In this document: piece after piece, positions 1,705 through 12,221 of the stretch
Layout: each line of letters starts with the position of its first letter
Position numbering within the stretch: position 1 is the first letter of the stretch
IMG/VR virus record: IMGVR_UViG_3300032223_003030
Span: 1 to 23,913 of that record
Length of the DNA: 23,913 nt
Reading direction: 5' to 3' (one strand)
Source of the DNA: a virus
Position numbers and translations under genes: made by a program
Notes under the pieces: model-generated
Told to the model about the DNA's origin: nothing
Databases searched by the model: none
The model's input: the letters and a program-made list of their open reading frames with translations, nothing else

Positions 1705-1825
1705 CTCCTTTCTCCTCATCTTCTTGTTGAAGATTTGATTCTATTGAAGCGCTCATAGTTTCATGACTTTCTTCTTCAATAGCTTCTTTTATCAATTCTA
1801 ATAAAAATTGTTTTGTGATTTTCAT
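1643..1825 (-). CDS. Small protein with N-terminal helical tag and basic tail
   Basis: A 60-aa reading frame with a strong GAGG ribosome binding site 7 nt before the ATG, lying in the end of the GIY-YIG gene, whose TGA stop overlaps the ATG (ATGA). Residues 1-19 (MKITKQFLLELIKEAIEEE) are an amphipathic helix of a kind that recurs at the N-termini of otherwise unrelated phage proteins; a related version begins the 165-aa protein at 7237. Residues 20-42 are polar and acidic, and residues 43-60 are rich in Arg and Lys. The last 20 codons overlap the holin-like gene in another frame, within a purine-rich stretch that would give Arg/Lys/Glu in any frame, so the basic tail may carry no function of its own. 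Function unknown. Confidence 0.55.
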   Translation of the reverse strand: MKITKQFLLELIKEAIEEESHETMSASIESNLQQEDEEKGDGRNRRHKRRSKRRNERKRE

Positions 1826-2553
1826 TTATTTTCCTCTATTGATTTACGTTTATATGTTATATTATATATAATTCTTTTTATAGAACTTCTAGAAACACTA
1901 AACTGTTTAGCTATATCATTTATTTTTATTTTTTGTTTATGCATATTTTTTATTTCTTCTACTTGCTCTTCAGTCAATTTGGAATTTGAATTTTTAACTC
2001 CAGTTCTTTGTTTGGCTAACTCAGACAAAAATTTTCTTTGAGATTCGCTTCGTTTTTTTCCTTTCCAGTGATTACTTTTTCCTTTTTTTGCTAAACTCAT
2101 TTTTTTTCTAGTTTCTTCAGAAAAAATTTTACCTTTATTTTTTTCACTAATTATTTTTTTTGTTTCTTCTGAGTGTTTTTTGCCTAAAGAGTTGATTCTG
2201 TGTTTTTCTCTTGTTACTTCAGAGCAAACAACACCAAGATTTGTTTCTGCTTTTTTTCTTTTATTGTATCCAACGTTTTTATCATAACATTTATATAAAT
2301 CTATATAATGCTGCTCTCTTTCTGTCGAGAGAGATATATTTTCAACTTCTTCTATAATAGAAAATTCAAAATCTTCTTCTCCGTATTTATTATATACATT
2401 TAACATATGTTTATTTGAGTGAATATTTTTTCTAAGCTCATAACGATGCTTATGCCAGCGCATATGAATATTTTTGCTGCTTCCTATGTATATTTTATTG
2501 TTATGTTTTGTGAGAATTCTATAAATTCCGATTTTATATTTTTTGTGGATCAT
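1822..2553 (-). CDS. Free-standing GIY-YIG homing endonuclease
   Basis: A 243-aa protein. Residues 9-26 carry the paired GIY and YIG motifs (GIYRI and IYIGSS). The catalytic Arg is probably in the region RWHKHRYELR (32-41), and the metal-binding Glu is in the STEREQHYIDLY helix (77-88), followed by NVGYN. Residues about 111-185 hold three or four copies of a short NUMOD3-type DNA-binding repeat built on SEETRKKMSLAKKGK. Residues about 192-232 look like a helix-turn-helix (LTEEQVEEI through IAKQFSVSRSSIKRII). This is the modular layout of I-TevI/Seg-type phage endonucleases, which nick or cut DNA of endonuclease-free relatives and spread by repair. It lies 15 nt after the sbcDC stop with no clear ribosome binding site of its own, and its 3' end supplies the binding site for the next gene. 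Being free-standing, it probably targets a neighbouring gene. Confidence 0.9.
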   Translation of the reverse strand: MIHKKYKIGIYRILTKHNNKIYIGSSKNIHMRWHKHRYELRKNIHSNKHMLNVYNKYGEEDFEFSIIEEVENISLSTEREQHYIDLYKCYDKNVGYNKRKKAETNLGVVCSEVTREKHRINSLGKKHSEETKKIISEKNKGKIFSEETRKKMSLAKKGKSNHWKGKKRSESQRKFLSELAKQRTGVKNSNSKLTEEQVEEIKNMHKQKIKINDIAKQFSVSRSSIKRIIYNITYKRKSIEENK

Positions 2554-2568
2554 CTAGAATAAATAGTA

Positions 2569-5500
2569 TTAAATATTAATAAAAGCATACCCATTATTAT
2601 TAATAATTTCTATCTGAGAGTCTACACACTCTTTTAATTGATCTAAATGTGAAATAACAATAATAGTTTTATAATATTCTTTTAATATTTGAAGAATTTT
2701 TATAAATCCATCTATATTTTCTTGATCTAAAGCGGTTGCTGGTTCATCTAAAATTAGTAATTCAGGTCTTGGTAATGTAGTACAACAATTTAAAGCTATT
2801 CTAATAGCAGTTGACGCTAATGTTTTTTCTGCTCCACTACCCATTTCTAATGGCCTTGCATCACTATTTGGATGTTTGATCATTATATCAAGCTTATCGT
2901 CATCGTTTTCTAGAAATACTCCAAAATTTACAACTCCATTTAGTATTTTAGCAATCTCTTCATTGATAGCTGGCAATTTATTCTTAATAATTTCATAAGT
3001 AATGCCACTTGGATGCATACATTTTAAATAAAGATCGTAGGCTGAGTATTCTTTTCTTGTTTTCTCAAGATTTTCTTTTTGTTCGTTAAGATTTTCAATC
3101 TTTTGTTTGAGTGATCCTTCTTTTTTATAGAAATCACGCAAATCACGATCTCTTGCTTCATACGAGCCTTTTGTTAATTGAAGATTTTGCTCTAGGTTTT
3201 TATTTTTTTTCTTTAACTCATCAAATTTTTCAATAAGTTCACGATTTTTCTCTTGTTCATCAAACTCTTGTTGATCTTTTTCGATCTGTGAAGTTAATTT
3301 TTCAATCAAAAGAAGGTTATTAGCTATTTGTAGCTCGTTTTTTGATCTTTTATCTTCTGATTCCTTCTTTTTCTTCGTCGCTTCACCGTGCTTATTAAGT
3401 CCACTAGTTGTTTTTTCATCAAGCTCGCTATAACGAGTATCAAGGATAGAGTAATTATGCTTATGATCCAGCAACACTCTTTGGTCAGTAGCCATTTTTT
3501 CTTTAGCTTGGAAGGCGTCCTTAATGAACTTGCAACTGGTGAATTGATCGCCACAGGGAATGTCCTCTAAGAGCTTTAATTTATGTGCATATCCTTTTAT
3601 GTTTTTTTCTAGAGAATCAATTTCTTTTTCAAGTGGAACCATTTCATCTCTAATTTTATCTAGCTCTGCATCGTCTTTAATTAATTGCTCATAATTAACT
3701 AGTTTTATAAAACTTTCAAGCTTAGAAATCAATGTATTTAATTTAGAATTTTCCTCTTTATAAGAAATATTGCTATTTGTTAAAGTTTCAACCTTTTGTT
3801 TGTTTAAAACTAAAGAATTATGCAGCTTAAAATAATTAGACACGTCAACTGGGGTTGCATTAAGTTGCTCTTTTAGCGTTTTTAACTCGTCATTAAGTTT
3901 TTCTATCTCTTCTTTAAATTCATCTAGCTGTTTTTGGTTATGAGTTATATTTGCATGTGTTTGAGCGAGTTCTAATTCGGTATTAGTTATGTCTCTGTCG
4001 AAATTATTGCCTTCTAGCTTCTTTAGAAGTGCTTTTAGTTCTGCGCTTTCTTCTTTGGCAAGCTTAAATTTCTTCTCAAACATCTCTAAATCTAGAAATT
4101 TAGCTAAAATTTCCTTACGCTTAGTAGATCCTTCTGAAATAAATGAAAGATAACCAAATTGACTCGCCATAGAGGTCAAAAAGAAGTCATCTACAGTACC
4201 AAAATACTTACGAATGCTATTATCTGTGTCATTGCGAGCTAAACCATTAAGAGAACCAGCGTCAGAAGTAAATTCTACATCTGTTTTAGCCTCTGTTGTA
4301 ATTACTCCCTTTAATTTTTTAGTGTATTTCTCAGAAGCTCTATCAATAACGTAGTTTTCTCCATCAATTTCAATTTCTACACGACCAGAACCCTTATCTT
4401 TTGTCTGATTAATAACATTAAGGTTCTTTCTATTGTTTTTTGAGGTAGTATTATAGATTGTATAGAGCAGCGAGTCTATAACTGATGATTTTCCACTATA
4501 ATTCTTACCAAAAACACCAACAATACCTCTTAAATTGTCAAAATTGATTGAATTACCCTCTCCATAGTTAAAAAGGTTATCCCATTGTAGGTTTTTTAGC
4601 TTCCATTTCACATTTCTCTTGGTTTCATCGGTATCTTCAACCATAGAAGAGTATTTTTCATTCAATTTGATTACATTCTGCATAACTTCTTCTTCAGCTT
4701 TGTAATCTTTTAGGAAATCCGTGATTAAATTCTCTTGGACCTTACCATCTCGTAGATTTTCGTTATTTGAAACGATCTCTGAGACATGTTTTGCATCAGA
4801 ACTACTAGCCAAAGCCTTATTTACGAAGATAACTGACTCTGGATTGAAGCGATTCTTGATAATTTCTGTTGCACGCTTTGTTTTTTCAAGCGAAATGTTC
4901 TTAGAGGTCATAATTCTGACCCTTGAGCCATCTTTTACGTCAATATCTGGTAGATTTCCTTCATCATCTAGGTCAATTGTTAGGTATGGTTTTGGATTTG
5001 GGATAATAAAATGCTGACAAGAGAACTTATCTTTTGATTGGATATCCCAAATAAGGAATCCTTTGTCATCAAACTCCCCAAAGTTACCCTGAACAGTTGA
5101 TCCTGGATATCTTACTCGCCCTTCTGTATCAACAATTTGATTACTTTTATGAATATCGCCCAAGAATGCATAATCATGGCCTTCAAGGGCAGTAATGTTA
5201 TGTTCTCCATTCTCTAAAGTATAACCACCGTCTGTTTTTACACCAGAAATAGCTCCATGATATAGAGCGATATTGATTTTTGAAGGATCTGATGGCTTTT
5301 TCCAGTTTTCTTCATCAATCCGACTCAAGATATTCAAATTTACTTCATCATTAAGCGAATATTCCTCAGAATACTTAAAAAGCTTAAGGTTTTCTGAGCT
5401 GATAGCATTAACAATAGGTGAAATCGCATCAGTTCGTGTATCGTTTTTGAGATTGCAATTCCCAGTTATACAAATTTTGTCATTTCTTTTGATTAAAATA

Positions 5501-6672
5501 TTTGAATTAGGAACAGTAACACAATAAACATAATCTTCGTGTTTAATTTTTTTAATATTATCTATGCCGGTATTATTTGTTATATTATTTTTAGTAATAT
5601 AGAAAACATATTGTCGTTTAGAGTTTTTAAATTTACCATATACTTCTTGATCGCTAATATGTGACATATATCCAACAAATCTTGAGAGAGTTACAAGATT
5701 AATAGCGTTTTGTTCTGAAATACTGGTGCATGTCCATGTATTTTTTGTTATCTTGCTACCATCTCCATTTAAATATCCGTCTATAAAACTTTTAATTTCA
5801 TTATTACTACAAGAATAAATGCTATTTGGTATACTTTTTTGTGCTTCAAAAAACGAAATTATTTTTTTAGCTAAATCACCATAAATACGCATAAATACGG
5901 TGCCGTCTTTTTGATAATTAATATTAAATTTATAATTTAAATTATTAAGCAAAGATGACAAGTATTCTATTTTTTTTTCTTTTTTAAAATGGAATTGAAC
6001 TCTACAACTATCATATTTTTGTTTCTTTGCACTTTTATGCTTCCTAAGTACAAATGTAGCATCTGCTAGACAAAATCCTAATAGGTTGTAAAAATAATCA
6101 TTAGTTGTATCACCACTTAGTCCATTTAAAGGTATATAATCATTTAAAGATATTTCTTCTGCAATCTTCTTATGATATACATCACTTGAGTTATTTTTAT
6201 ATAAAATTTGATGTGTTGGCGTAACAAGCAAATCTGCTTTTGGAGAAATTAAATTAATTAATTCGCCATTAAACATTTTTTTAATTAAACCAATTGGTTT
6301 TTCAAATACAATTTGATTTAAATTAGTAGAAAAAGTAGCAATTTCATCGTTTCTGTTGGCATTTACATACTCAGAAATATTCTGCCATCCATCTTTTTTT
6401 GTTAGGATCTCATGATCTGCGCTAAAACAATCGTGATTTCCAAGAATTACAAAAGTTGGAGCAATTTCTGATAGAGAACGTAGAAATTTTGTTGCCATTT
6501 CTACAAATTCTGGGCTGATTTGTGTTTTTGTATGAGCAATGTCGCCGCAGTGAATGATGTAGTCTACTTTTTGTTCTTTTGCTATGCGATATATCTCATT
6601 AAATACGATCTTAAACTCATCATGGCGCTTTAAGTTTAATAGATGTGTGTCCGACAAGTGTAGTATCTTCAT
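2569..6672 (-). CDS. Fused SbcD-SbcC (Mre11-Rad50-like) nuclease/ATPase containing an intein
   Basis: A 1367-aa precursor that would be 1043 aa after intein removal. N-terminal SbcD/Mre11 phosphoesterase: motif I SDTH (7-10), motif II GDIAH (43-47), motif III GNHD (78-81, directly followed by the intein), motif IV YHG (471-473) and motif V GDIH (505-508). After a linker, from about residue 686, comes an SbcC/Rad50 ATPase: Walker A GKNYSGKSS (722-730), long coiled coils (about 860-1215) with a hinge at CGDQFTSC (1040-1047), ABC signature MGSGAEKT (1277-1284), and Walker B with D-loop LLILDEPATALD (1305-1316). In T4 and T5 these are two proteins (gp47/gp46, D12/D13); here they are one chain. 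The complex resects and trims DNA ends for recombination-dependent replication and repair. The ATG has GAGGG 4 nt upstream and follows a terminator/promoter region. The hinge is C-x6-C instead of the usual CxxC zinc hook. Confidence 0.93.
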   Translation of the reverse strand: MKILHLSDTHLLNLKRHDEFKIVFNEIYRIAKEQKVDYIIHCGDIAHTKTQISPEFVEMATKFLRSLSEIAPTFVILGNHDCFSADHEILTKKDGWQNISEYVNANRNDEIATFSTNLNQIVFEKPIGLIKKMFNGELINLISPKADLLVTPTHQILYKNNSSDVYHKKIAEEISLNDYIPLNGLSGDTTNDYFYNLLGFCLADATFVLRKHKSAKKQKYDSCRVQFHFKKEKKIEYLSSLLNNLNYKFNINYQKDGTVFMRIYGDLAKKIISFFEAQKSIPNSIYSCSNNEIKSFIDGYLNGDGSKITKNTWTCTSISEQNAINLVTLSRFVGYMSHISDQEVYGKFKNSKRQYVFYITKNNITNNTGIDNIKKIKHEDYVYCVTVPNSNILIKRNDKICITGNCNLKNDTRTDAISPIVNAISSENLKLFKYSEEYSLNDEVNLNILSRIDEENWKKPSDPSKINIALYHGAISGVKTDGGYTLENGEHNITALEGHDYAFLGDIHKSNQIVDTEGRVRYPGSTVQGNFGEFDDKGFLIWDIQSKDKFSCQHFIIPNPKPYLTIDLDDEGNLPDIDVKDGSRVRIMTSKNISLEKTKRATEIIKNRFNPESVIFVNKALASSSDAKHVSEIVSNNENLRDGKVQENLITDFLKDYKAEEEVMQNVIKLNEKYSSMVEDTDETKRNVKWKLKNLQWDNLFNYGEGNSINFDNLRGIVGVFGKNYSGKSSVIDSLLYTIYNTTSKNNRKNLNVINQTKDKGSGRVEIEIDGENYVIDRASEKYTKKLKGVITTEAKTDVEFTSDAGSLNGLARNDTDNSIRKYFGTVDDFFLTSMASQFGYLSFISEGSTKRKEILAKFLDLEMFEKKFKLAKEESAELKALLKKLEGNNFDRDITNTELELAQTHANITHNQKQLDEFKEEIEKLNDELKTLKEQLNATPVDVSNYFKLHNSLVLNKQKVETLTNSNISYKEENSKLNTLISKLESFIKLVNYEQLIKDDAELDKIRDEMVPLEKEIDSLEKNIKGYAHKLKLLEDIPCGDQFTSCKFIKDAFQAKEKMATDQRVLLDHKHNYSILDTRYSELDEKTTSGLNKHGEATKKKKESEDKRSKNELQIANNLLLIEKLTSQIEKDQQEFDEQEKNRELIEKFDELKKKNKNLEQNLQLTKGSYEARDRDLRDFYKKEGSLKQKIENLNEQKENLEKTRKEYSAYDLYLKCMHPSGITYEIIKNKLPAINEEIAKILNGVVNFGVFLENDDDKLDIMIKHPNSDARPLEMGSGAEKTLASTAIRIALNCCTTLPRPELLILDEPATALDQENIDGFIKILQILKEYYKTIIVISHLDQLKECVDSQIEIINNNGYAFINI
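5458..6429 (-). mobile_element. Intein with LAGLIDADG homing endonuclease inside the SbcD domain
   Basis: An in-frame 324-residue insertion, precursor residues 82-405. It starts with Cys82 in block A (CFSADHEIL, then a DGW), has block B TPTH (151-154), and two LAGLIDADG helices with their acidic residues intact: LLGFCLADA (Asp204) and FIDGYLNGDG (Asp304). Block F is VYCVTVPNSN (383-391 region) and block G is ITGN, ending in Asn405 and followed by Cys406 as first C-extein residue. The penultimate intein residue is Gly rather than the commonest His, a substitution known in active phage inteins. Removal restores GNHD-CNLKND, a normal SbcD motif III context. All residues expected for splicing and DNA cleavage appear to be present, so it is probably active, though splicing cannot be shown from sequence. 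Insertion after the metal-binding GNHD motif means the nuclease must be inactive until splicing. Confidence 0.93.
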
Positions 6673-7239: not shown

Positions 7240-8178
7240 TTATATGCTCATTAGTTTATTAAGAAGGAAATAATCCGTATCCTTAATTAGTTTCGCATTC
7301 TTTTTACATTCCAAAAATTGTTCATGAGACATATCTCCAACATCTATTCCTGATGGAACTGGGATTTTATAGACTTCTGCATCATAATTTAGCAGATCAC
7401 TAATCAATTTTTCTGCTTTTTTCTCTGCATCTGGGTCTAACGCCAAGTAGATTGCGGGATCTTGCTTGATGATTTCTCTGAAGACTTTTGAGTTTTCTCT
7501 GAGGGTGCTGCCAAGGATCGGGATTGCATTTTTTGCTTTAATCGCATCAAAAATTCCTTCAACAATCGTAACATCTTGACTCCAATCTATATATAATTCA
7601 TTAAAAACTATATCTTTTTTAACGTCTGGGTTTGTATACTTCTTCCAGTTATCTTCATAAGTTCTACCAACATAGTAATTTACTTTACCTGATGAATTAA
7701 AAGATGGAATTATTACTCTTCCTTCATACTCACCAGAGGTAGCATAACCTATCTTCCAGAATAGAATATCTTCTTTTCTTAAGCCTCTATCTTTTAGATA
7801 TCTTCTAGCTTTTAGTGAAGTTAGGCTATTATCTTTATTGCATAGAGATTGAAATTCTTCTGGGAGGTTTACTGCTTCTTCTTTAATTTCTTCATCTTCT
7901 TGCTCAAAGATCTTAGAATAATCATTGATTTCTATGATTCCACATAGCTCATTCCATTCTTGGAGTTGAGAGTATGTGCCTAATCTTTTAATTATTCTTG
8001 CTAGGTTGGGAGTAGACCAATCGCAGATCCAGCATTTACCCGCACCTTTTGCTATATTTATGCTAAATTTTTTCTTGTGATGATCGCAAAACGGACACTT
8101 AAATAATAGTTCATTTCCGCTATGAAAATATTCTCCAAGAATATCTCTTAAGATTTGGACTTTTTTTGTTTCTGACAT
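7240..8178 (-). CDS. DNA primase (zinc ribbon plus TOPRIM)
   Basis: A 312-aa protein. Residues 28-52 hold a CHC2-like zinc ribbon with two pairs of cysteines (CPFC at 28-31 and CWIC at 49-52). Residues about 150-180 match the RNA polymerase core of DnaG-type primases (GRVIIPSFNSSGKVNYYVGRT in two halves). The TOPRIM domain has the catalytic Glu in VEGIFDAIKA (Glu207) and the metal-binding DxD in LALDPDA (Asp248, Asp250). It makes RNA primers for lagging-strand synthesis at the phage fork. It lacks a helicase domain, unlike T7 gp4, so the helicase must be a separate gene outside this window. The start overlaps the end of ruvC by 31 nt, with an AGGA site about 8 nt upstream, consistent with coupled expression of the two DNA-processing genes. 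Confidence 0.88.
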   Translation of the reverse strand: MSETKKVQILRDILGEYFHSGNELLFKCPFCDHHKKKFSINIAKGAGKCWICDWSTPNLARIIKRLGTYSQLQEWNELCGIIEINDYSKIFEQEDEEIKEEAVNLPEEFQSLCNKDNSLTSLKARRYLKDRGLRKEDILFWKIGYATSGEYEGRVIIPSFNSSGKVNYYVGRTYEDNWKKYTNPDVKKDIVFNELYIDWSQDVTIVEGIFDAIKAKNAIPILGSTLRENSKVFREIIKQDPAIYLALDPDAEKKAEKLISDLLNYDAEVYKIPVPSGIDVGDMSHEQFLECKKNAKLIKDTDYFLLNKLMSI

Positions 8179-8687
8179 TGAAAGAATCCTGCTTTCGCAA
8201 TAACATATGAGTCAGCGCGATCATATGTACCTTTTTTGGGGTTATTGTGAGCAGTATACTCTACTTTAAATGTCGATTCAAGTCCTAAGATATGAGCTAG
8301 TACGATTTCTTTTGCGTTTTGACCTTTTTCTACTTTTATTCCCAGTGCTTTTCTCGCAGTAGAGGCTCCGATATATTCTGGTTCTGTTTGAAAAATTTCA
8401 GCACATAACCAACTAACAATTCCGTTAAATTTTGAAATTGTTACAATAACATTTGCGCTCGATGATCCTGGTCTAAAAGCATTTAGTGATTGCTCTATAA
8501 AAACATTTTTAATATTATATAAATTTTTTATTTGTATAAATCTTTCTTTTACTACGGCAGCTTTCTTAAAGATACTAATATTTTTTTTGCTTGTCAAGTC
8601 TATACATTCATTATGAATAATTTTTTCTTGTGCATCAATAACTGTAAAACCTAATAATTGAGTTCCAACATCTATTCCTAATATCAT
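8148..8687 (-). CDS. RuvC-like Holliday junction resolvase (intact copy)
   Basis: A 179-aa RNase H-fold nuclease. Visible catalytic acids: Asp6 in MILGIDVGT, Glu65 in VFIEQSL, and the Asp156/Asp159 pair in YDRADSYVIA near the C-terminus. The conserved second half also has GASTARKALGI and KGQNAKEIV, typical of phage RuvC-like resolvases. It cleaves four-way junctions so that branched replicating DNA can be packaged. Its ATG overlaps the TGA of the HNH gene (ATGA) with a GGA about 10 nt upstream. Residues 1-62 are 55% identical (34 of 62, no gaps) to the broken copy at 9464-9255, so this is a diverged allele and not a recent copy. The gene may be a chimera of two alleles, joined near codon 62. 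Confidence 0.9.
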   Translation of the reverse strand: MILGIDVGTQLLGFTVIDAQEKIIHNECIDLTSKKNISIFKKAAVVKERFIQIKNLYNIKNVFIEQSLNAFRPGSSSANVIVTISKFNGIVSWLCAEIFQTEPEYIGASTARKALGIKVEKGQNAKEIVLAHILGLESTFKVEYTAHNNPKKGTYDRADSYVIAKAGFFQCQKQKKSKS

Positions 8688-9010
8688 TTTATTTTTTCCA
8701 ATATTTTTTTAATGTGCTGAGTAAATCCATTATATGATAAATCTAATTTCATTCTATTACAAATATTGCAACAGGGAACACAATTTTCTATTATATAACC
8801 TATAGAATTGTCAATTCTATCTATACCGCAATAATCTAAATTTATTTTTTCAATTAATATATTTTCCGAAACATTAAAGCCACCACAGTAATAGCACTCT
8901 TGAGAAGTTATTTTAAAAAATTCTTCTTTTGATAATAAAAATTTTCTTTCTTTAGTTTTACAATTACTAACATATCTTAAATATCTATTAGTTAAAGTAT
9001 GTCGATACAT
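8684..9010 (-). CDS. HNH homing endonuclease, C-terminal catalytic part
   Basis: A 108-aa frame holding the nuclease half of a phage HNH endonuclease: CYYCG (residues 39-43), then GIDRIDNSIGY (62-72) and NCVPCCNICNRMK (76-88), the usual zinc-supported HNH core. Upstream of its first Met the same frame stays open and reads KWYETNKYKVS, which is the linker normally found between the N-terminal zinc ribbon and HNH domain in this family. The real protein therefore begins in another frame at 9276 and needs a -1 shift at an A8 run (9052-9059). Joined, it would be about 197 aa. The TGA stop overlaps the ATG of the intact ruvC. If the shift is a true mutation the endonuclease is dead; if it is slippage it may be made at low level. 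Confidence 0.85.
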   Translation of the reverse strand: MYRHTLTNRYLRYVSNCKTKERKFLLSKEEFFKITSQECYYCGGFNVSENILIEKINLDYCGIDRIDNSIGYIIENCVPCCNICNRMKLDLSYNGFTQHIKKILEKIK

Positions 9011-9276
9011 GCTAACTTTATATTTATTAGTTTCGTACCATTTATCGTTTCTTTTTTTTGACCTTCTGCAATTTTTTGTTTATGCTTGATTGCGTGTTTA
9101 TTTTTAGAAATTTTTACTTTTTCTTTATTATTTTGTCTCCATATTCTTGCTTTTTCAGCATTGCACTGCTTACAAATATTTTTGTATTTTTTAGTTTTTA
9201 AACATAAAGAAAAATATTCTATATTTTTTGTTTTTTTGCACTTATTGCAAGTTTTTAGATTATCTTGATTGTCCAT
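8992..9276 (-). CDS. HNH homing endonuclease, N-terminal zinc-ribbon part (frame-split)
   Basis: A 94-aa frame. Residues 9-40 form a zinc ribbon (CNKCKK at 10-15, then CKQCNAEKARIW at 35-46), followed by a basic helical linker rich in Asn, Lys and Glu. This is the standard N-terminal half of free-standing HNH endonucleases in T4-like phages. After GQKK at about residue 73-76 the frame loses family resemblance and ends 20 codons later, while the -1 frame continues the expected protein into the HNH core. The ATG lies in the last codons of the broken ruvC, almost at the point where ruvC similarity ends, and has no ribosome binding site, so translation probably depends on ruvC stub translation. 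Confidence 0.8.
   Translation of the reverse strand: MDNQDNLKTCNKCKKTKNIEYFSLCLKTKKYKNICKQCNAEKARIWRQNNKEKVKISKNKHAIKHKQKIAEGQKKETINGTKLINIKLACIDIL
9052..9060 (-). other. A8 run: frameshift mutation or slippage site in HNH gene
   Basis: The minus strand reads CAAAAAAAAG. In the upstream frame the codons are CAA AAA AAA GAA. The heptamer A AAA AAA is in register for -1 slippage, and a -1 shift here joins the zinc-ribbon half to the HNH half with no residues lost (QKK then RNDKW). I did not find a clear stimulatory stem just downstream, so an inactivating single-base indel or a sequencing error in the homopolymer are equally possible. Confidence 0.6.
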
Positions 9277-9464
9277 ATAATATTTTTGATGTTAAACAGA
9301 TATTTTAGTTCAAGCAATCTTGCTTTTACTGTTGCTGCTTTTTTAAATAGAGTATCTAGTTTTTTGCTAGTTAGATCTATTGCTTCGTTGTGAAGAATAG
9401 CGCCGTCTTCTCCGAGAACGGTTATTCCAGTTATCGAGGTGCTTATATCTAATCCGAGTATCAT
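9255..9464 (-). pseudogene. Truncated RuvC-like resolvase (N-terminal stub)
   Basis: A 69-aa frame whose first 62 residues align without gaps to the start of the intact RuvC (34 of 62 identical, e.g. HNE-IDLTSKK and NIKN). It keeps the first catalytic Asp (Asp6 in MILGLDIST) but stops just before the second motif (FIEQSL), replaced by seven unrelated residues and a stop. Without the Glu and the C-terminal acids it cannot be a nuclease. The start at 9464 is fixed by TAATG coupling with the gene upstream; a Met at 9509 would overlap that gene deeply and adds residues absent from RuvC. Similarity ends where the HNH gene begins, so the break is best explained by insertion or homing at this codon. 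The stub may still matter by carrying translation into the HNH gene. Confidence 0.85.
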
Positions 9465-9694
9465 TATGGTAATGTACCAGACATTTCTGAACTTGTTAAA
9501 TTTGTCCAAATGGTTGCAGCAATTGCAATTAACTTTGGATCTTGCATAGAAATGTCATCACCGGGAGAAAATGATGTTCTATTATAGTTTGATGCTATTT
9601 CTACACCATCTCTTTTAACAATAACTTTTTCTCTTATAAAAATATTGTTATTAAATATTTCTATCTTGTCTAAAATTTTTTCTTCTGTTAACAT
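9464..9694 (-). CDS. Small conserved protein next to tail-fibre genes
   Basis: A 76-aa protein of unknown function. It has a strong AGGAG ribosome binding site 5 nt before the ATG and ends in TAATG overlap with the ruvC stub. The pattern (K-I-E-I near residues 10-14, then VIVKRDGVEIA about 24-34, SPGDDIS about 43-49 and IAATIWT about 58-64) resembles small proteins often found beside tail-fibre genes of marine phages, as I recall them; I cannot confirm this by search. It contains no signal peptide or membrane span. Being the last gene after the fibre cluster, it may be a fibre-associated structural or assembly protein. Confidence 0.7.
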   Translation of the reverse strand: MLTEEKILDKIEIFNNNIFIREKVIVKRDGVEIASNYNRTSFSPGDDISMQDPKLIAIAATIWTNLTSSEMSGTLP

Positions 9695-9702
9695 TTAATC
9701 TC

Positions 9703-10602
9703 CTACGAAGTTGCAATGTAAGTTATGTTTAGCAAAAACCCATCAGTATAAGATTGTGCTGAATCTTTTTTTACAGTTATAGTATTTGGAGTGCCAGCTG
9801 CATTTGAAGACAGTATTAATGGAAAAGTATAATCTGATGGATTTGAACTGTTGTTACCGTTTAAATAACCGGTAGAGTAATATTGAGATGGATAAGGAAT
9901 CCCTTTGATAGTCGCGCCAAAGACAAAATCAGCAGTACCGAAACTTGGATTAATAGTTAAAGTTAAGGTTACTAATTTTCCAACTTTTATATATCTAGCA
10001 GTGCCAACTACGGAATTAGTAAAGTTAGCTAAAACAGGCGACCATGTACCTTCTTCGTAATCATTAAGCAATTCAGATGTAAGGGTTCCTGAGCCAGCAG
10101 TTGGGCCTGGTGTATTAGAAAAATCTATACCGGCACCATTATTAAAACTTAAATTAGTAGTTATAAGGCCGCTTGAATTTATTGTAATTCTTTCTATATC
10201 GTTTGTTTTTATTGAAAGAGAATGATTTGTTTTTGTTCCAATAAAACAAACATTAGGATCATCTGCGCCAAGTATAAGTTTTTTATTGTTTGTGCTTAAA
10301 GACATATAGCACGCTGTATCTCTAGCGACCTGAACTATTTCAGCAGGATCGCCAGAGCTACTACCAGAAAAATAAACAGATCCAGTAACATTTAGTCCAC
10401 CAGATGCAGTTAAATTATTAAATAATCCCAAAGAAGAACTAACTCCAACGGATGCAGTTAAATTATTAAATAATCCCAAAGAAGAACTAACGCCGACAGA
10501 CGCAGTAATAACCGATCCGTCAGCGTTAATGTTCTGTAGCTTTGTTTCGCTTGCAAGAATTTTATTCCTTATTCTTGCAAATTCAGAATCTTGGACTGCC
10601 AT
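9703..10602 (-). CDS. Tail-fibre-like protein with tandem repeat and receptor-type C-terminus
   Basis: A 299-aa protein. Residues 1-33 are a helical, polar N-terminus. Residues 34-65 are two exact copies of a 16-residue Ser/Gly/Leu unit (ASVGVSSSLGLFNNLT), followed by ASGGLNVTGSVYFSGSSSG, the Gly/Ser-rich beta pattern of phage fibre shafts. The C-terminal part (about 180-299) starts with LLNDYEEGTWSPVL and continues with RYIKVGKLVTLTLTI, a well-known end of many tail-fibre proteins. It probably forms a trimeric distal fibre or a tip that meets the host surface. It starts 3 nt after the stop of the neighbouring fibre-like gene. The receptor role is inferred from family resemblance. Confidence 0.75.
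   Translation of the reverse strand: MAVQDSEFARIRNKILASETKLQNINADGSVITASVGVSSSLGLFNNLTASVGVSSSLGLFNNLTASGGLNVTGSVYFSGSSSGDPAEIVQVARDTACYMSLSTNNKKLILGADDPNVCFIGTKTNHSLSIKTNDIERITINSSGLITTNLSFNNGAGIDFSNTPGPTAGSGTLTSELLNDYEEGTWSPVLANFTNSVVGTARYIKVGKLVTLTLTINPSFGTADFVFGATIKGIPYPSQYYSTGYLNGNNSSNPSDYTFPLILSSNAAGTPNTITVKKDSAQSYTDGFLLNITYIATS
10403..10498 (-). repeat. 48-bp in-frame tandem repeat (two copies)
   Basis: 10403-10450 and 10451-10498 are tandem 48-bp units. Their first 41 bases are identical and the last 7 differ at three positions, all silent, so the encoded 16-residue units are identical. They lie in the shaft-like region of the 299-aa fibre protein. Confidence 0.95.
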
Positions 10603-10605
10603 TTA

Positions 10606-11592
10606 TTATACCAATGCATATGAAGCTGTATTATAATTTTCTGCAATTAATCTATATTTATCTGTTGCGCCTAATGCTGGGGCGTCTAGAACAACGTGTA
10701 ATTCGTCGCTTAGTGTACCAGATACTTTTAATTGTACTGATAATAGATCATTTACCCATACGCCTGTATCTAATGTAGCAACATCAACCATAACGTAATT
10801 TAAGTCTGTTGCTGGGAATGCATTTTGTCCTAATTTTGTTTTTGGTAAGATTACAATTGCATTTCCAGAAGCATCGAATGCGCCTGTTATTTGATGACGT
10901 AATCTGTTGTAAGCATTTACAATTTTTGTATTGTTAGTTCCAGAAGTTAATGCATCATCGATAGCATGGAATGCTTGATCGATATTAAATAATCCACCGC
11001 CGTTAACAACTATACCAGTTAATGTCGTAAATGAAGCAGAGGTATGTAGTGACGCAGTTTGATTTAATCTAATATTAGAATCAACGTCCACACCAGCAGA
11101 ACCACTGATAGAATTAATTTTAGCTTTATTGAATTTTAAATCAGCTAAATTAGTTGTTCCACCGGCATTTGTTGTATAGCCAAATTGATAATCGTTGCTT
11201 GAGCTGACCCATAGGAACGAGCCAGTTTCATTATTTCCTCTGTTGATGTATAGACCGGCTTGTGATGCATCGTATGCGCCACTAGATCCGCTTAGTTTAT
11301 TGATAACAACGATGTTATCTTTTACTTCAAGCACATCGGTATTGATGATAGCAAGCGCACCGCTTACTAACATGTTACCCATAATTTGAACATCACCGCC
11401 AAAATAACCAGAACCAGCAGTTAATCTACCACTGCCAGAGATTGTACTATTTGATACAAGAGCAGACGCTGTTAATGGTATTGAAGCGCTGATATTTGTA
11501 TCGCTTACTTCAAAAACAATATTAGTTCCTACTTTTTTCTGAAGTAGTTTTTGCGCTGATAAGTCTGTCAAAGACTTTATTTGCCTAGCCAT
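10606..11592 (-). CDS. Tail-fibre-like structural protein
   Basis: A 328-aa protein rich in Ser, Gly, Thr and Asn. Residues about 36-185 show the SGSG/TAGSGYFGGDVQIMGNM pattern of beta-helical fibre shafts and the phrase EVKDNIVVINK, then GLYINRG and GSFLWVSSSNDYQFG, a set of motifs I know from large-phage fibre/baseplate-edge proteins. Residues about 222-318 form a separate domain (TKIVNAYNRLRHQITG through LDAPALGATDKYRLIA) that recurs at the end of the 201-aa protein upstream. The ATG has GGAG 9 nt upstream. It is probably a fibre or fibre connector; the shared domain may be the common attachment or trimerisation unit. No catalytic motif is visible. Confidence 0.75.
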   Translation of the reverse strand: MARQIKSLTDLSAQKLLQKKVGTNIVFEVSDTNISASIPLTASALVSNSTISGSGRLTAGSGYFGGDVQIMGNMLVSGALAIINTDVLEVKDNIVVINKLSGSSGAYDASQAGLYINRGNNETGSFLWVSSSNDYQFGYTTNAGGTTNLADLKFNKAKINSISGSAGVDVDSNIRLNQTASLHTSASFTTLTGIVVNGGGLFNIDQAFHAIDDALTSGTNNTKIVNAYNRLRHQITGAFDASGNAIVILPKTKLGQNAFPATDLNYVMVDVATLDTGVWVNDLLSVQLKVSGTLSDELHVVLDAPALGATDKYRLIAENYNTASYALV

Positions 11593-11615
11593 TCATTTAT
11601 TCTCCAAAGTTAAAT

Positions 11616-12221
11616 TTATACTATATTAAATAGTTCTCCATTTTCATTTACCGCGACTAATTTATATTTATAAGCTGAGTCTAGATCTGGTGCATCCATT
11701 ACCACGTATAATTCATTGTTTAATGAGCCAGATACCTTAAGTTCATAGGCTATAATTTCATTAACCCAAGAACTTCCAGACTGAACAAGAATATCTATTG
11801 ATATATCGTTAAAATAAGGCAGAGTAAAAGCGTTAGATCCAAGTGAAGAAGTTGGTAAAACGACTATTGCATTTCCATTATTATCAAAATTTCCTGTTAC
11901 TTTATATCTTAATCTTTTATATGCATTAACTAATTTAGTGTTTAACGATGCTTCAAAACTTGATGCTGTGTAAGCATATGTTGCGGTTAGTGCAGTATTA
12001 GCATATGAAGCAGTTTCTATAGATCCACTAAAATAAGAAGCGGTAGCAGCTAATTGAGCATATGAAGAAGTACCTAGGAAGATACCAATATATGGTACAG
12101 ATGAACTAACGTGACCATTAACACCACCAGTCACCTCAAAGATGACGTTGTTTTCATCATATTTTAAAATACTGCCATTCACTATTAAGTTTGGTAGTAC
12201 TTTAAACGGCGCTAGTGCCAT
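11616..12221 (-). CDS. Short tail-fibre-like protein with TASYA repeats
   Basis: A 201-aa protein. Residues 1-48 are a beta-rich N-terminus that shares a short VIFEV motif with the 328-aa neighbour. Residues about 51-88 are degenerate repeats built on ATASY (SSYAQLAATASYFSG, ETASYANTALTATYAYTASS), a common shaft repeat in large-phage fibre proteins. Residues about 95-193 are the same domain as the C-terminus of the 328-aa protein (TKLVNAYKRLRYKVTG through MDAPDLDSAYKYKLVA). A GAGGA site precedes the ATG, inside the end of the upstream small gene (20-nt overlap). It is probably a shorter paralogue from the same fibre apparatus. Confidence 0.72.
   Translation of the reverse strand: MALAPFKVLPNLIVNGSILKYDENNVIFEVTGGVNGHVSSSVPYIGIFLGTSSYAQLAATASYFSGSIETASYANTALTATYAYTASSFEASLNTKLVNAYKRLRYKVTGNFDNNGNAIVVLPTSSLGSNAFTLPYFNDISIDILVQSGSSWVNEIIAYELKVSGSLNNELYVVMDAPDLDSAYKYKLVAVNENGELFNIV

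Follow-up and report, generated by a model that had tools for sequence, protein, structure and literature searches.

Homing endonucleases are regarded as drivers of phage mosaicism, and, to our knowledge, it seems rare for a single homing event to leave traces in which both alleles still stand next to each other. Fungal mitochondria are described as containing hybrid genes that arose through mobile ORFs (mORFs), including atp6 of Allomyces macrogynus and atp6, atp9, cox2 and nad3 of Glomus; in these cases the endonuclease arrives with a foreign C-terminal end, and the native end stays on as a leftover (PMC3630166). Introns accompanied by duplication of a host-gene end are described from the mitochondria of Tremella fuciformis (PMC7315562). 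In phages, free-standing HNH genes are known to split other genes, as mobE does in nrdA of Aeh1 and mobA in gene 60 of T4, and overlaps with the upstream frame amount to 23 bp for T4 mobA and 20 bp for segC (PMC2988022).

Here we describe a locus of the viral record IMGVR_UViG_3300032223_003030 (positions 1 to 23,913; this whole stretch of 23,913 nt is called the window below) that bears a resemblance to all of these systems. We propose that a break in the resident ruvC took up an HNH endonuclease gene together with the foreign ruvC front linked to it; the right-hand side would have been joined by homology and the left-hand side, at codon 62, without it. To this reading we give a probability of about 60%. 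The order on the minus strand is a 76-aa gene, a ruvC stub, the HNH gene, an intact ruvC and a DnaG-type primase, and the individual features are as follows:

9464..9694, minus strand: 76-aa gene (phrog_6228), 5' of ruvC in the native order
9279..9464, minus strand: putative resident ruvC 5' stub, codons 1-62, with its ATG at 9464
8684..9276, minus strand: HNH / endonuclease VII-like homing-type gene, frameshifted (phrog_1035 and phrog_3118 matches)
9052..9059, minus strand: A8 run, site of the HNH frame shift (by reading-frame inspection)
8148..8687, minus strand: intact, putatively chimeric ruvC, 179 aa (phrog_159, E 2.4e-5; predicted RuvC fold)
8406..8687, minus strand: putative foreign ruvC tract, codons 1 to ~94 (from departures from residues invariant in 12 relatives)
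8379..8408, minus strand: most likely foreign/resident crossover, codons 94-103 (from a scan of departures from invariant residues)
8148..8380, minus strand: putative resident ruvC 3' part, codons 103-179 (departs at 1/36 invariant positions; shares 69/76 aa with L024)
7240..8178, minus strand: DnaG-type primase, native neighbour 3' of ruvC (phrog_47, E 7.8e-40)

The TAA stop of the 76-aa gene overlaps the stub ATG (TAATG), and the stub frame continues through the HNH sequence to a stop at 9255, the HNH start overlapping this frame by 22 nt. Further on, the HNH stop and the ruvC start share an ATGA, and the end of ruvC and the start of the primase gene have 31 nt in common, an overlap also seen in relatives. 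A group I intron in ruvC was rejected: no Rfam family reached its gathering score within the window, and the insertion is essentially all coding.

Used as a query, the intact RuvC protein matches exactly two places in the window, with E values (1e-117 and 3e-18) that put the resemblance between stub and intact gene far beyond chance. The sequence-only reading of this DNA had described a gap-free stub of 62 codons diverged from the intact gene, and alignment confirms it: the stub and the start of the intact ruvC are identical at 34/62 amino acids and 119/186 nucleotides, ungapped, with similarity ending at codon 62. The stub shares 40-49 of 62 amino acids with the ruvC start of ten near relatives, whereas codons 1-62 of the intact gene share only 28-36; at residues of this stretch that are invariant in 12 relatives, the stub differs at 0/21 and the intact gene at 6/21 (Fisher p 0.02). 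Against the seven closest relatives first retrieved, identity is 66-79% for the stub, 48-58% for the N part of the intact gene and 73-83% for its C part. Differences between the stub and the relatives fall on third codon positions in 52% of cases, against 51% between working genes. The native upstream join to the 76-aa gene (TAATG) is still present at the stub, and this, together with its closeness to relatives and its intact invariant residues, argues that the stub is native; because it shows no decay, and, if it has been free to decay since the event, less than ~0.06 substitutions per site have accumulated (95% bound), the insertion event is recent. Judged from these comparisons, the stub is a recently displaced native ruvC 5' end.

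Relatives were gathered with the whole RuvC as query (ten) and with codons 1-100 (80 loci). In 13 IMG/VR relatives (L003-L009, L015, L016, L018, L022, L024 and L028) a single uninterrupted ruvC is followed by the same primase, with neither stub nor HNH gene, and in 14 near and sister relatives the primase (55-77% identical) comes immediately 3' of ruvC. Upstream of ruvC, L003-L006 and L024 also have the 76-aa gene and tail genes, and a TAATG-type join of the 76-aa gene and ruvC recurs in L006 and L024. No second ruvC copy or piece was found in the relatives' ruvC loci that were fetched. The sequence-only reading had looked to relatives lacking the HNH gene whose ruvC resembles the stub in its 5' half and the intact gene in its 3' half, and such relatives exist; the opposing case that it named, relatives carrying two full ruvC genes, did not turn up, ruvC being single in the relatives. 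L024, a 187-kb contig, is close to the left and to the right of the junction alike (identity of 73-77% for tail proteins and 77% for the primase), so the window is coherent and L024 gives a good picture of the empty site.

The intact ruvC changes character along its length. Codons 1-97 depart at 12/52 residues invariant among 12 relatives, where any relative departs at 0-2 of 52-54; from codon 101 onward, 1/36 invariant residues is changed (12/52 vs 1/36, Fisher p 0.012) and 69/76 aa (91%) are identical to L024. Separate trees for the two parts, proposed earlier as a check with the split at codon 62, bore this out in their branch lengths but not in their topology: the terminal branch of the intact ruvC differs strongly (0.56-0.76 for codons 1-97, 0.06 for codons 101-176), and conflict between the part trees alone is not significant (AU p 0.11). 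The AU test rejects the stub and the N part of the intact ruvC as sisters (p 0.037). The last departure from an invariant residue in the 5' part is at codon 94, and a crossover scan reached a best Fisher p of 0.005 (permutation 55/2000) with codons 85-98 scoring alike, which places the crossover most likely near codons 94-103 (about 8379-8408). A crossover at codon 62 was rejected, as departures from invariant residues run on to codon 94; the foreign tract, once thought to end at codon 62, would instead extend to about codon 94-100.

Because it is the working copy that has changed and the dead copy that is conserved, decay or relaxed selection does not account for the pattern, whereas a foreign 5' import does. 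Base composition agrees weakly with such an import: GC3 is lower in ruvC codons 1-97 (12/97) than in codons 101-179 (19/79; p 0.049), and the GC of the HNH gene is 23%. The suspicion of a chimeric resolvase was well placed, since the 5' part is diverged and the 3' part ordinary for the clade; on sequence grounds the intact ruvC is a chimera with a foreign front and a native back, the divergence of the front being what points to its foreign origin. Counting against the proposed explanation, 7/12 odd residues in the foreign tract are absent from every sampled relative. The donor was not found in the sampled collections by a search with ruvC codons 1-100 and a degenerate pattern for IDVGTQ..LGF, and ruvC had no match in annotated phage records. 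A search of solved structures by sequence gave no match.

The AlphaFold2 model of the chimeric RuvC has a pLDDT of 90.8, and its top PDB matches are the RuvC proteins of D. radiodurans, T. thermophilus and E. coli (E 3e-9 to 2e-7), the best all being bacterial RuvC. Residues D6, E65, D156 and D159, invariant in 12 diverse relatives, are kept in the chimera; we take them to be the equivalents of E. coli D7, E66, D138 and D141. By prediction, the chimeric RuvC still looks like a working resolvase.

The HNH gene consists of two overlapping frames (9276..8992 and 9010..8684) with a one-base shift at the A8 run (9059-9052), where frame 0 reads GGT CAA AAA AAA GAA and the HNH sequence goes on in the -1 frame; the HNH gene of the sequence-only reading is not one ORF. 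Since its halves fit consecutive, overlapping stretches (60-136 and 102-226) of one PHROG endonuclease VII profile, phrog_1035 (endonuclease VII/HNH), the HNH is most likely one frameshifted gene, not two. Among HNH kin ORFs, the N-terminal half has one match, to a different ORF from that of the C-terminal half; with no shared-ORF match for the N-terminal half, the one-gene reading rests on the PHROG profile. The frameshift may reflect sequencing or assembly error, slippage or true loss. A programmed frameshift is not supported: the slippery A-run is present, but a structured stimulator is absent, the RNA downstream of A8 having no unusual structure (z -0.5).

The HNH domain matches phrog_3118 (HNH endonuclease, E 4e-14), with its DR...N...C..CN..K residues conserved in kin, and has no Pfam match. 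Kin of the domain occur in 98 annotated phage records and 415 IMG/VR stretches. In Stanwilliamsviridae they lie directly after RuvC in Annadreamy (L096), before a Cas4-like exonuclease in Jada (L099) and before RecA in Tomas (L100), varied positions among the recombination genes of Streptomyces phages, as expected of a free-standing homing endonuclease. Elsewhere in the records of 27 relatives, HNH kin amount to two weak matches, and an IMG/VR search for the C-terminal half with its own peptide patterns found no close kin. Across 80 related HNH loci there is no case of a gene piece repeated on the two sides of the HNH, or of a neighbouring ruvC of the family seen here; a family-wide habit of carrying gene ends was accordingly rejected (0/80 loci, the few left/right matches being short minus-strand pieces).

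Two further homing-type genes lie nearby. An intein of ~324 aa with a LAGLIDADG-like motif (window 5458-6429, minus strand) directly follows the GNHD active-site motif in a fused SbcD-SbcC protein and is absent in 13/13 relatives covering the site. The fusion itself (gp47/gp46-like; 2569-6672, minus strand) combines metallophosphatase and AAA_23 domains in one ORF and is also found in L003, L004, L006 and others of the phage clade. A GIY-YIG/NUMOD3 endonuclease gene (window 1822-2553, minus strand) follows the SbcDC gene, with no match in 14 near loci. Three homing-type genes of three families (GIY-YIG, intein and HNH) are thus gathered within 7.5 kb around recombination genes, reminiscent of 'HEG islands' (PMC10448857). 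Separately, three tail-associated proteins (9703-10602, 10606-11592 and 11616-12221; window 9703-12221, minus strand) have similar stretches in common, with ASVGVSSSLGLFNNLTA repeated within the first of them; the 201- and 328-aa proteins match the same places in relatives, which suggests that tail or fibre genes were tandemly duplicated.

In the course of events that we favour, the ancestor would have been an L024/L005-related phage with the normal order of 76-aa gene, ruvC and primase, and the donor, in our reconstruction, a phage with the HNH gene directly upstream of its ruvC, the HNH stop overlapping the ruvC ATG. The resident ruvC would have been broken near codon 62, most likely through presumed cleavage by the HNH enzyme, and ~870 bp received from the donor in one recent event. 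The right end would then have been repaired by homologous recombination inside ruvC, with the crossover near codons 94-103, and the left end joined to the HNH start at codon 62 without clear homology; microhomology at this left junction (TATGGACAATCA vs TATAGAGCAATCA) is present but was not judged significant. The order of these repair steps and the type of joining are reconstructed, and homing as the driving process is what we infer. The product would be a stub that now merely leads translation into the HNH, the HNH gene, which has since suffered, or uses, a frameshift, and a full-length RuvC with foreign codons 1 to ~94 and native sequence from ~103. We propose that the foreign ruvC, being diverged, is no longer cut, which would make the insertion immune while preserving the resolvase.

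The data would be fitted equally well by a self-contained mobile unit, in which the HNH gene and a spare ruvC 5' piece re-supply the front of the gene that they interrupt and thereby make the insertion harmless, with codons 63 to ~94 as co-conversion of the flank. This accounts for a foreign tract that passes codon 62, the ATGA join of HNH and ruvC is tight, and the logic is that of the Allomyces and Glomus mitochondrial mobile ORFs with foreign gene ends (PMC3630166); the locus is, however, a single instance, with no other among the 80 HNH kin loci or the fetched ruvC loci, and we consider such a unit rather unlikely. The broader conjecture, that a phage homing endonuclease carries along an extra 5' end of the gene it targets and at each insertion into an essential gene at once rebuilds a working, cleavage-proof hybrid, we likewise regard as unlikely, if slightly less so. 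If true, such a unit would be the phage equivalent of the mitochondrial mORFs, and homing would have a means of exchanging protein halves among phages.

It is quite unlikely that the HNH is a passenger, brought along when illegitimate recombination joined ruvC codon 62 of one phage to the HNH-ruvC pair of another with no cleavage by the HNH. Phage mosaicism is common, the HNH is frameshifted and the left junction lacks clear homology, all as such an origin would have it, but the junction coincides exactly with the HNH start codon, and exchange boundaries are places where homing endonuclease genes are known to occur (PMC10448857). Misassembly of the metagenome, in which one phage supplied the sequence as far as ruvC codon 62 and another the sequence that begins with the HNH, would explain why the stub/HNH junction is seen in one contig only, with no second instance in any other IMG/VR contig. 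Yet the junction has no shared word to mislead an assembler, L024 is the nearest phage type to the left and to the right of it, and the mosaic at ruvC codon ~100 would require a second, independent join; we judge misassembly very unlikely. The locus does show a tandem pair of homologous 5' ends. Even so, it is highly improbable that ruvC was duplicated in place, or was once present as two full genes, and that one copy then decayed; this was rejected, as relatives carry one ruvC, divergence stops at codon ~94-100, and the dead stub retains its conserved residues (21/21 invariant) while the working gene is altered, the reverse of decay.

Under the entry of an HNH gene with a linked foreign ruvC front, the locus is informative because it retains the displaced native 5' end as well as the endonuclease and the chimeric gene, and the ends of the tract can thus be mapped within tens of bases. 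It would indicate that insertion into an important recombination gene can be survived with no intron or intein involved, and that a Holliday-junction resolvase can become a within-gene hybrid through co-conversion.

The comparison with free-standing phage endonucleases is close in several respects. As with mobE and mobA, a free-standing HNH gene lies inside an important phage gene, and its 22-nt overlap with the stub frame resembles those of T4 mobA and segC (PMC2988022). The pieces split by mobE and mobA are, however, both needed and reassemble, whereas ruvC would be complete through its foreign 5' part and the stub redundant. The free-standing endonucleases of T4, in co-conversion and marker exclusion, likewise transfer their gene along with the flank of a neighbouring gene (PMC2988022), but in normal co-conversion the allele is replaced cleanly to the left and to the right, whereas here one side appears joined without homology and a stub is left. 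Among mitochondrial systems, the proposal for Tremella is similar, namely that a gene is partly replaced by foreign sequence when an element inserts that has both an endonuclease and a homologue of part of the host gene (PMC7315562); the Tremella elements are introns or former introns, whereas the ruvC locus has no intron by Rfam. The layout as a whole is known from fungal mitochondria; in the open-access literature, which omits many subscription papers, we found no report of it from a phage and no precedent there for a displaced gene end. As in the mORFs, an endonuclease and a foreign gene end would have been inserted and the native end displaced as a diverged fragment, with the native fragment resembling relatives and the functional copy a hybrid. 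The Glomus atp6 endonuclease is LAGLIDADG-type and that of the phage HNH, and, unlike in the mORFs, the foreign tract in ruvC also passes the insertion point. Where the mORFs exchange the C-terminal end and leave the remnant downstream, the phage ruvC would exchange the N-terminal end and leave it upstream; the fungal mitochondrial mORF hybrid is the closest parallel, and the phage ruvC its N-terminal mirror image.
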